Positions 11,980-37,405 of a DNA stretch of 39,504 nt are shown here, in pieces. Made by a program: the position numbers and the translations under genes. The stretch comes from an uncultured Candidatus Saccharibacteria bacterium (GTDB lineage Bacteria; Patescibacteriota; Saccharimonadia; Saccharimonadales; Saccharimonadaceae), in NCBI GenBank assembly GCA_947166405.1, contig CAMVEA010000006.1, forward strand, positions 1 through 39,504, written 5' to 3'. Positions within the stretch are counted from its first letter, which is position 1; the number at the start of each line of letters is the position of its first letter. The notes below the pieces were generated by a model that saw only the letters and a program-made list of their open reading frames with translations, searched no databases and was not told the origin of the DNA.

Positions 11980-12241
11980 ATGCCTACATTATAACACGTT
12001 TATTCCAAAATCAACCCCAAAATTCAAAAATTTTCTTTCCTTCTACTTCAGCGATTCAACCAACAACAAACACACCACCCAAATAAGCCCCACCACACCA
12101 GAACAATGCAATATTCTATATATTATACCTAACAATCAAATTGTTCACCTCACTAAACAATTCACATCAAACTCCACAAATTGTTCACTTTTCAATTGCA
12201 TATTCTAATTGATTTAAGATGATATCTACCTAGGGGACGAA

Positions 12242-14092
12242 CTACTGCGCTAGGCAGCGGACGCTAAATCCGAAGCCCTTATTGCCGTAGTTGGACGGGC
12301 TGACGAGGCTACTGTTGAAGTCCAAGTAGTACGCGCCGTTGCTACTGTCCGCAGACTTAGACCAGTAACCGCCGATGCTGCCTCGAGTGACGACCGACGA
12401 GCCGAGGAAGAGGCCGGAGTAGAGGAAATTGTTCGGGTAAGTACGAAATGCAATAGAAGCATTTGAACCCTCAGGAGAACCTATCCAGGATGGTCTAGTT
12501 TCGTTACCGTAGTTAGCTGGAGTGGATAATCCAAGTGATAAGCCTAGTTTGTAGAAGTTATTCTTCTCGGCTGCCATATTGGTCTTATCTCCACTTTCTG
12601 GAAGAGTCCATCCAGTTGGACAAATGTCACCTGCAGTGACAGAGTTATTTGTACTAGTACTATATTTACCATTACCGGCTGTAGCAGAATACCAGTTGTA
12701 GTAGTTGCCATATGAGTAGATATTGGCGTCAGTTGCCGTGTTTGTTCCTCTTTCTGTGGTATTGCCAGTGTATAGCATGGATTGGTCAAAGCAAGCAGCA
12801 GAATTGGTCGTACACCATGCAGTAGAAGTTGGGTTAGTTGAAGCAGAGAGGTGGTTGGAGGTAGTTGGATTTGTTGCGTCATATATGTTTGTGAGTGGGA
12901 GTGAAGGACTATTGGTGTTGGTGGCTGATAGTTCTATATCATTATTGCTGCTGTCTTTATCAGCTAGACGTAAGTTTTCAATCATCCAGCATTTACCGTC
13001 TGCGAGCTTGGCAATGGCGTAGGTGTTGTTGTCACGCTGATCTGTGAGAGCGGAGACTGAGGAGAGGTTGGCAGTGCCGTCTATTGGTGCCAGAGTGAGA
13101 GAGCTACATACGCTAGCTACTTTGGTTGAGTCTTGGAGATTACCCTGGCTCTTTACCCATACAGCGTAGAGCGAGAGGCCGGGGTTAGTGCCAGTGTAGT
13201 CAGCAGTGTTTAATGTAATGGTTTCCATCGGACCATAGAACTTAGCCTCAGGATTCGTGGCATAGTCAAACTTATCACTCCAGCCAGCGAAGCCATAGCC
13301 AGTACGGCTGAAGTTGGATGGGAGGAGCATTACAGAAGCGGCGACACTTTGCTCTGCCATAGTGCCTTGGTAATCTGATACGTTGGCATAGTATTTAATC
13401 TTTCCTGACTCTGTAGATTGTGGCGTTATTGGAGCTGGCTCTGTGGATGGATGAACGAGGGTGTATTTGACTTTGCCGGTGTAGGTATCGGCTGGTTGGG
13501 AGAGACTGGCGTAGACGGCGTAGGTGGTCTCCAGGCTACTGCCAGTACCGCCCTCGGCATCGGTGGTGTTGCCATAGGTAGCGACCTTGGTATATGTATC
13601 TGGTACTATATGATAATTAGTGAAATCTTCGGTATCGTTAGTGCCATCCATAATAGTAGGAGCATATGTACCAGCTACGGCTGATAACTTCATAGCCCAG
13701 CTTGATACGTCTGTGGTGCTGGTACCAGTAGTGAGTCCTGTGGAGATGGTATTGGTGGCAGTATTGCCGACCAGCTTGGTGTGGTTCTCGCCTGAATACT
13801 GATCACCAGTAAATCCTATCGCATAGATGCTAAAGCCACCTGGGTCATTACAGTAAGTCGTAAGGGTAGTCTTGCCGATTCCTGATTCATAAGTACCAGG
13901 TTGAAGAGAGGTAGTATGCTCATCTCCTTCAATGATAGTACCACCCATTGTGCAGGCTGTAGGAATGGTGATATTAATCTCATCCACGACATCGTCAGCA
14001 CTAGCATTTATAGACGCTGTTGCTACACCAGCAATCATCGTCATGCTTAATAATCCCCCCGTAATAATATAGTCTACATGTAGTTTATCCAC
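12242..14092 (-). CDS. Secreted FISUMP-domain surface protein (candidate DGR target 1)
   Basis: Signal peptide; YGFAGWSDKF...LSLYAVWVK InlB-repeat-like segment; TDQRDNNTYAIAKLADGKCWMIENLRLAD, CPTGWTLPESGD, GFSVRCLAQ. Confidence 0.85.
   Translation of the reverse strand: MDKLHVDYIITGGLLSMTMIAGVATASINASADDVVDEINITIPTACTMGGTIIEGDEHTTSLQPGTYESGIGKTTLTTYCNDPGGFSIYAIGFTGDQYSGENHTKLVGNTATNTISTGLTTGTSTTDVSSWAMKLSAVAGTYAPTIMDGTNDTEDFTNYHIVPDTYTKVATYGNTTDAEGGTGSSLETTYAVYASLSQPADTYTGKVKYTLVHPSTEPAPITPQSTESGKIKYYANVSDYQGTMAEQSVAASVMLLPSNFSRTGYGFAGWSDKFDYATNPEAKFYGPMETITLNTADYTGTNPGLSLYAVWVKSQGNLQDSTKVASVCSSLTLAPIDGTANLSSVSALTDQRDNNTYAIAKLADGKCWMIENLRLADKDSSNNDIELSATNTNSPSLPLTNIYDATNPTTSNHLSASTNPTSTAWCTTNSAACFDQSMLYTGNTTERGTNTATDANIYSYGNYYNWYSATAGNGKYSTSTNNSVTAGDICPTGWTLPESGDKTNMAAEKNNFYKLGLSLGLSTPANYGNETRPSWIGSPEGSNASIAFRTYPNNFLYSGLFLGSSVVTRGSIGGYWSKSADSSNGAYYLDFNSSLVSPSNYGNKGFGFSVRCLAQ
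12272..12418 (-). other. Candidate DGR variable region VR1 (C-terminal coding segment)
   Basis: 147 bp colinear with 35696-35842. 29 differences, 27 at codon positions 1/2 of NNY codons. Followed by 45 bp (12227-12271) identical to 35651-35695. Confidence 0.8.
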
Positions 14093-35665: not shown

Positions 35666-37405
35666 CTACTGCGCTAGGCAGCGGACGCTAAATCCGGCGT
35701 ACTTATTGTAGTAGTCGGACGGGCGGACGCCGCTACTGTAGAAGCTCAAGTAGTACGCGAAGTAGCTATTGTACGCAGACTTAGACCAGTAGCTGCCGTT
35801 GCTACCTCGACTGTCGACCGACGAGCCGTAGACGATGCCGGGGTAGAGGAAATTATTTGGATAAGACCGGTAGGCGGCAGACATAACAGTGCCAGTAGGA
35901 GTAGTACTAGAGCTAGATGTTGAGCCAGTACCACCAAGTGCTATGTCAAGCAAACCAAAGTTCATACTTGCACTTCCACTAGTTGGAAGTGTCCAACCTG
36001 TAGGACATAGGTCACCAGCCGTATTACCACTAGACTTGGAATAAGTACCATTATCAGCAGTAGCAGAATACCAGTTGTAGTAGTTGCCATAGGAATAGGT
36101 ATTAGCAGAAGTTGCTGGGTTTGCTCCTCTTTCTGTGGTATTCCCAGTGTATAGCATGGATTGGTCATAGCAAGCAGCATCTGCACTTGTACACCATGCA
36201 GTAGAAGATGGGTTAGTTGAAGCAGAGAGATGGTTAGAGGTAGTTGGGTTAGTTGCATCGTATATATTGGTAAGTGGTAATGATGGATTGTTGGTGTTAG
36301 TAGCTGATAGTTCTATATCATTGTTACTGCTGTCTTTATCAGCTAGGCGTAGGTTCTCAATCATCCAGCACTTACCGTCTGCGAGTTTGGCGATGGCATA
36401 GGTGTTGTTGTCACGCTGGTCTGTAAGGGCGGAGACGGAGGAGAGGTTGGCAGTGCCATCTATTGGAGCGGTAGTGAGGGAATTGCAGACACTGGCTACT
36501 TTGGAGGAGTCTTGCATGCTGCCAGCGGAGCGGACCCAGACGGCATAGAGAGGCATACCAGTGGAGCTTAGATCATCAGTAGTAATAGTCTCGTTAGGAC
36601 CATAGATTTTGCCACTGCCATCCATGGTGGTACTCCAGCCAGCGAAGCCGTAGCCAGAACGAGAATAGTTAGAAGCCATAAGGGTGACTCTAGAGTTACT
36701 TGAAGCAGTTTGCTCGGCCATGGTGCCTTCTGAATCTAAGGCGTTCTCGGAGTAGCAAATCTTGCCAGCATCGCAAGTGATGGGCTGTGGTGTAGGCTCG
36801 GGGTTGGCTACTGCAGTGAAGTTGATAGTGTTAGTATAAGCGCCAGAGGCTTGGATAGTGGAAGCTTTGGCGGCAATCTTGAACTGGACTGGCGTGGAGC
36901 CTGAACCGTCATTGTTGATTAGCTCTGCACCAGAGGCAGCGGTGTAGAGAGGGAGACCAGAATAATTAGACCAGCTAGTACCAGAGTTGGTAGAGTAGCT
37001 ATAGCCCCAAGTGTTGTCGGTAGTGAGACTAGCTAGGCTAGCATCGGTGGCTAGGCTGGTGAAGAGTTTGGTATCATCTACAGTATTGACTAGATTAGTG
37101 CTGGCGTTGGTGGTGTTGCCGGCGGTGGCAGAGAGAGTATAGCCGTACATGTTGTTAGTACCGACATTAATCGTGATAGTATTGCTATCTGCGGAGTTAC
37201 CTGGAGTGAGGTTGTCAATAATAAGATCAGCCGAGGATAGTGAGATGCGGATAGTGGGGTTCCAGGTAAACTGCAGTTCTACATTATCTTGGTAGGTGAG
37301 AGCATATGAATTGCCAGAGAAGCTAGACAAACCATAGATACAAACAAATCCCAACGCAATCATTGCCGAGATTTTTATAGTCTTCTTGCCATTTTTTGCC
37401 CACAT
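35666..37405 (-). CDS. Secreted FISUMP-domain surface protein (candidate DGR target 2)
   Basis: Signal peptide; paralog of 12242-14092 with identical TDQRDNNTYAIAKLADGKCWMIENLRLADKDSSNNDIELSATNTN and GFSVRCLAQ end. Confidence 0.85.
   Translation of the reverse strand: MWAKNGKKTIKISAMIALGFVCIYGLSSFSGNSYALTYQDNVELQFTWNPTIRISLSSADLIIDNLTPGNSADSNTITINVGTNNMYGYTLSATAGNTTNASTNLVNTVDDTKLFTSLATDASLASLTTDNTWGYSYSTNSGTSWSNYSGLPLYTAASGAELINNDGSGSTPVQFKIAAKASTIQASGAYTNTINFTAVANPEPTPQPITCDAGKICYSENALDSEGTMAEQTASSNSRVTLMASNYSRSGYGFAGWSTTMDGSGKIYGPNETITTDDLSSTGMPLYAVWVRSAGSMQDSSKVASVCNSLTTAPIDGTANLSSVSALTDQRDNNTYAIAKLADGKCWMIENLRLADKDSSNNDIELSATNTNNPSLPLTNIYDATNPTTSNHLSASTNPSSTAWCTSADAACYDQSMLYTGNTTERGANPATSANTYSYGNYYNWYSATADNGTYSKSSGNTAGDLCPTGWTLPTSGSASMNFGLLDIALGGTGSTSSSSTTPTGTVMSAAYRSYPNNFLYPGIVYGSSVDSRGSNGSYWSKSAYNSYFAYYLSFYSSGVRPSDYYNKYAGFSVRCLAQ
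35696..35842 (-). other. Candidate DGR variable region VR2
   Basis: Colinear 147-bp counterpart of VR1; changes almost entirely at codon positions 1/2 of NNY codons. Confidence 0.8.

Follow-up and report, generated by a model that had tools for sequence, protein, structure and literature searches.

Two FISUMP-domain genes in the 39,504-nt stretch of DNA analyzed here (the window) end in blocks that align without a gap and differ chiefly at the first two positions of their codons. What process could vary gene ends in this way? The window is contig C6 of a 1.08-Mb genome (G000; 95 contigs, 97.9% complete, 0.51% contamination) that belongs to a tiny, probably host-dependent Saccharibacterium. 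Saccharibacteria depend on other bacteria, and their recognition of changing hosts is an open question. For comparison we used 60 genomes of the genus, one per species and including the window's own.

Two variable gene ends and a template on another contig

On the coding strand, the first block (VR1; 12272-12418) aligns with the second (VR2; 35696-35842) over 147 bp with no indels and 29 differences. Codon position 1 accounts for 16 of these, position 2 for 11, and position 3 for only 2, a departure from an even distribution with p = 0.005 by chi-square. These counts exactly reproduce those of a first-pass annotation made from the window alone (29 differences, 27 at positions 1 and 2). The differences sit in NNY codons that alternate with fixed codons, and the C-terminus is identical in both proteins. 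Homology to a template repeat found elsewhere in the genome (TR_A) makes the blocks somewhat longer than first noted, carrying them past the stop codon to CCTAGG. The features concerned are as follows:

12229-12427, minus strand: VR1, homologous to template TR_A (C29:6138-6350), from the 3' end of target gene 1 through its stop codon to CCTAGG
12242-14092, minus strand: target gene 1, a FISUMP-domain protein of 616 aa from GTG with a C-terminal VR (TIGR02145 and PF09603)
12251-12997, minus strand: FISUMP (Fib_succ_major) domain of target 1 (PF09603, residues 366-614)
35601-35646, minus strand: left arm and central GC hairpin (GAGCCC..GGGCTC) downstream of VR2, a candidate cis-acting retrohoming element
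35653-35851, minus strand: VR2, homologous to template TR_A (24 substitutions relative to TR_A, 22 at template A)
35666-37405, minus strand: target gene 2, a FISUMP-domain protein of 579 aa with a C-terminal VR (TIGR02145)
35675-36376, minus strand: FISUMP domain of target 2 (matched by PF09603 at residues 344-577 with a score short of the Pfam cut-off, and by TIGR02145 with a score exceeding its own)

Both genes match TIGR02145 above its cut-off (E 1e-15 for gene 1 and 2.5e-14 for gene 2), as target gene 1 does PF09603. Sequence searches gave no PDB match to the FISUMP target domain, and an AlphaFold model of the FISUMP C-terminal domain built from a three-row alignment reached a pLDDT of only 28 and was discarded; the target fold was not obtained. 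A C-type-lectin fold, to which the first-pass annotation had linked FISUMP-like domains, is thus no more than a conjecture for these targets. Terminator and promoter scans at VR1 gave chance-level results only.

The template and the reverse TRANSCRIPTASE both lie on contig C29, with TR_A directly downstream of the RT gene and on the opposite strand; the RT search of the genome's contigs gave no match on C6. Nearly all variable codons are AAC or AAT in TR_A, relative to which VR1 has 28 core substitutions, 25 of them at template A, and one in-frame codon fewer. The C29 RT scores above the RVT_1 cut-off and carries the motifs IGNLTSQ and YVDD, which fit the (I/L/V)GxxxSQ and YxDD of the DGR lineage. 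In the PDB it is closest to 8ub7 (E 1e-26), and the part of 8ub7 that aligns is found within the brt of BPP-1 (L234). The C29 RT and the BPP-1 bRT both match phrog_1423. The assignment was made without a full RT phylogeny.

The first-pass annotation had read VR1 as a DGR-type variable region at the C-terminal end of a FISUMP gene in a CPR host, and had predicted that an A-rich template copy with a DGR-type RT near it would act on the window in trans. It held that a genome containing no such RT or no such template copy would refute the reading. That outcome did not occur: both were found in the same genome, adjoining each other on C29, and in both targets the VR spans the stop codon. The genome was also searched with the annotation's proposed codon skeleton, which was recovered at C29:6151-6339 (minus strand) with A at the N positions, beside the RT. 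The match departs from the prediction in one extra in-frame AAC codon and in an AAC in place of the second TAC of GCGTACTACTTG. A CPR host is supported as well: the RT search returned two named genomes, one from sheep ileum and one from the rumen of a roe deer, and both are Candidatus Saccharibacteria.

Our reading, to which we assign a probability of about 0.96 on the strength of sequence comparison, is that VR1 and VR2 are variable repeats of a DGR whose machinery is encoded in trans, on C29 of the same Saccharibacteria genome. In the mechanism we propose, the TR, antisense to and converging on the RT gene, would be transcribed, and reverse transcription of its RNA would place random bases opposite the adenines. 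The resulting cDNA would then replace the 3' end of FISUMP-domain genes, these ends being recognized most likely through their constant 3' end and, for efficiency, an inverted repeat. That the RT and an accessory protein perform this transfer is inferred, without experimental retrohoming data.

Could the adenine pattern instead be an artefact of assembly or binning, in which VRs of several strains or species were mixed? In favor of this, the assembly is in 95 contigs, some of which end inside VR genes. However, VR1 and VR2 share a single 39.5-kb contig with SecA and histidyl-tRNA synthetase genes, contamination is 0.51%, and the same RT family occurs in 38 of the 59 other genus genomes. We give this possibility next to no weight.

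Elsewhere in the window, near target gene 2, an EcoRI-type adenine methyltransferase gene lies beside a GmrSD_N/HNH gene (31895-34166), a candidate restriction or defence locus.

Adenine-specific substitution across the target repertoire

Many gene ends in the genome match the same template. TR_A has 19 complete matching VRs, the window's two among them, and one more that is truncated where contig C5 ends. Across the 19, 421 of 499 core substitutions (84%) fall at A, against the 32% expected from the composition of the template, in which 60 of 189 positions are A (binomial p about 1e-130). The products at template A are G (194), T (163), and C (64), in agreement with the rank order published for DGRs, in which G is the commonest and C the rarest (PMC3521204). 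Change relative to TR_A affected 52% of adenines in AAY codons, 29% at silent positions (the third positions of CGA and GGA), and 3.5% in structural codons (Tyr, Ser, Lys), rates that fit a broad mutation of adenines whose products are then sifted by selection for protein folding. Only two sites make up the silent class, which gave 0/12 in the smaller B set. Owing to the 21 AAY codons of the template, each event draws one of 15 residues, and never a stop, at ∼21 positions, which gives each VR a space of roughly 15^21 (5e24) possible proteins.

The VRs also resemble one another more than their surroundings do. In pairs whose upstream 300 bp are <75% identical (mean 62%), identity at the non-A sites of the VR is still 94%; for A sites the mean over all VR pairs is 53%. 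This local homogenization, combined with divergence at A sites, is the trace that repeated retrohoming from one template leaves. Genes with different VR types (A-type and B-type ends) have N-terminal modules in common, often at >90% identity, which means that recombination has exchanged them.

Might such a pattern arise in a surface-protein family without any reverse transcriptase, from the usual duplication of genes, conversion among paralogs, and positive selection? The targets do form a large paralogous family with freely exchanged N-terminal modules. Moreover, FISUMP genes are present in 60 of 60 genus genomes, whereas this RT was found in 39, so FISUMP genes are not DGR targets by definition: all 21 genomes without the RT have them. 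But conversion and selection do not pick template A, and 84% of the substitutions sit on the adenines of a separate A-rich copy beside an RT, while non-A positions of the VRs remain nearly invariant despite diverged upstream DNA. We consider an origin without an RT highly improbable.

The repertoire of the DGR-type ends extends beyond TR_A, with 42 VR-like gene ends in the genome in total. Two further TRs, on C7 and C37 (98% alike), have six and two VRs, respectively, assigned by their 3' ends. No TR in the assembly matches, at non-A positions, another 15 VRs of the same gene family, of which seven form group B2, five form group C, and three stand alone. Group C comprises C4:4845, C4:6921, C34:1824, C37:7359, and C44:6350, along with a fragment, C42:6559-6609, cut by a contig end; its members have one skeleton in common. 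Forty-one of its 50 variable columns fall at positions where TR_B has A. The VRs at C4:4845 and C34:1824 have upstream 400-bp regions that are 99.2% identical, yet differ at 25 template-A sites. Together, the column bias and this pair suggest that a further template probably existed recently and is either missing from the assembly or lost. A search of the assembly for the group C template found merely VR-like copies and the one contig-end fragment, and among the 60 genus genomes nothing exceeded 77% identity over the whole stretch. Since the assembly breaks inside VRs, as at the end of C5, more VR copies are suggested to be missing from it.

Cassette layout and the inverted repeat beside the variable repeats

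The genome contains three full-length RT genes with open frames (C7, C29, and C37). We examined 44 cassettes across the genus, in the order target, accessory protein of ~260-350 aa, RT, and in 39 of them a TR could be recognized by mismatches biased toward A. All but two of the 39 have it just downstream of the RT and antisense to it; one (L159) was counted among the 37 by choice between two equally scoring TR copies. The exceptions are L186, with the TR on the strand of the RT, and L178, with the TR upstream of the accessory gene.

Target and RT are separated in 44 of 44 cassettes by an ORF, in most cases of 250-370 aa and in a few only partial. In our genome and its nearest relatives the encoded protein has an N-terminal helix-turn-helix (HTH), outside which no convincing Pfam family was found. 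No relation to Avd was detected with hhalign against the single BPP-1 Avd sequence (probability 0.3%). We do not claim the protein to be Avd-like or MutS-like; in Pfam scans of 39 members, only HTH matches rose above background. An AlphaFold model from two rows (pLDDT 41) merely suggests a helical C-terminal half. The HTH gene of the window (29765-30775) was considered as a stray accessory gene and rejected (hhalign probability 0.3%).

A second element is found on the VR side only. Downstream of most A-family VRs come TTCGTC-CCCTAGG and an extended inverted repeat built around the hairpin GAGCCC-NNAA-GGGCTC; several VRs have the whole repeat and others its left half only. Searching the genome, we found it only directly downstream of A-family VRs or at the contig-end VR of C5, and it is absent at TR_A. 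BPP-1 requires a comparable GC hairpin 3' of its VR, outside the TR homology (PMC3240598), though the Saccharibacteria hairpin loop is not the published GRNA. At least five A-family VRs do not have the inverted repeat (VR1, C34:3772, C15:5937, C49:3462, and C15:136), and for want of this hairpin VR1 may now be inactive. At C5:39910-40013 (L259) the inverted repeat lies at the contig end, where the VR is cut.

On the minus strand of contig C80 (L155), an RT remnant (GDLKEWKELPVSKSLFYQPEGLGVVIGNLT, then a stop) directly follows a FISUMP gene whose end is NNC-rich; this locus is a decayed further DGR cassette.

The DGR could also be a thing of the past, with the VRs as its frozen survivors: VR1 is without the inverted repeat, orphan VR groups are without a TR in the assembly, and the C80 cassette has decayed. 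We find this unlikely, though less so than the two alternatives above, as the three full-length RT genes keep open frames and several VRs show few or no non-A differences. All 13 substitutions of C29:3373 relative to its TR are at A, as are all 20 of C7:14552, and the group C pair with near-identical flanks is already 25 A sites apart. For the DGR acting in trans, ongoing transfer is an inference, there being no reads or strains to draw on.

Comparison with described systems and significance

The system has in common with the DGR of BPP-1 (mtd/avd/TR/brt) its RT relationship, the A-specific TR-to-VR transfer, and a target protein that carries its VR at the C-terminus. It differs in the TR, which is downstream of and antisense to the RT, and in the accessory protein, which is two to three times longer and not detectably Avd. 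BPP-1 has one target in cis, whereas the Saccharibacteria TR has 19-20 targets, nearly all in trans. The Treponema denticola DGR, in which one TR serves up to seven targets (PMC4891356), is similar in combining one RT and TR with several remote targets and in leaving relict targets in RT-less genomes. It has far fewer targets than the 19-20 of our TR or the genome's 42 or so VR-like ends, and its targets are not FISUMP proteins. The 7.95-Mb genome of Thiohalocapsa PB-PSB1 has nine DGR loci, 21 VRs, and 15 target genes, its targets being tied to NACHT-type conflict systems (PMC10907252). There too, several DGR loci occur in one genome, some loci are degenerate, and action in trans is inferred; our genome, by contrast, has only 1.08 Mb, with three intact cassettes and some 42 gene ends that are VR-like. 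The "inverted" DGRs of DiGReF (PMC3521204) also have RT and TR on opposite strands, but in those TR, VR, and target together oppose the RT, whereas almost every cassette of this genus has only its TR inverted relative to the RT. Roux et al. (PMC8144416) describe a CPR clade 2, which is similar in having CPR hosts.

The published counts that we found reach four VRs per DGR (PMC3521204), seven targets per TR (PMC4891356), and 21 VRs per genome (PMC10907252); one survey gives larger counts for some TRs, for example, 21 merged VRs within a single gene (PMC6642488). Of the papers searched, none mentions FISUMP, and none treats DGRs together with Saccharibacteria and reverse transcriptase. Genomes with multiple DGRs, targets remote from the RT, and inverted RT/TR arrangements have each been described on their own (PMC3521204, PMC4891356, PMC10907252); our system is set apart by its number of targets, its TR orientation, its accessory protein, and its FISUMP targets.

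We are evenly divided on a wider model, in which the genome would maintain a variable-antigen system of about 40 FISUMP surface proteins that are interchangeable. Its DGR cassettes, at least three in number, would each serve their own subset of genes, defined by the unvarying VR end and the VR-side inverted repeat, with the TR transcribed against the RT. The accessory proteins would form a new family whose N-terminal HTH, in this species and its near relatives, could regulate or target the process. Surface display of the targets, and an effect of their variation on binding to host cells, neighbors, or phage, are inferred. In a very small genome, about 40 surface-protein genes subject to direct mutation take up tens of kilobases, an outlay that points to recognition, whether of hosts or in evading phage, as a dominant pressure. 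Because the arrangement is multi-target, it also supplies 19 natural replicates of one template. Sequence alone then suffices to measure the spectrum of mutations, the selection acting on the fold (by comparing silent with structural adenines), and the cis-elements used in retrohoming.

One relative (G038) has two TRs and 45 FISUMP matches, with only about six closely matching VRs. Another, 97% complete (G003; L215-L230), has 27 FISUMP matches and no detected RT; differences within its closest paralog pair fall mostly at codon positions 1 and 2 (16, 15, and 8 at positions 1, 2, and 3), as if a DGR had been lost.
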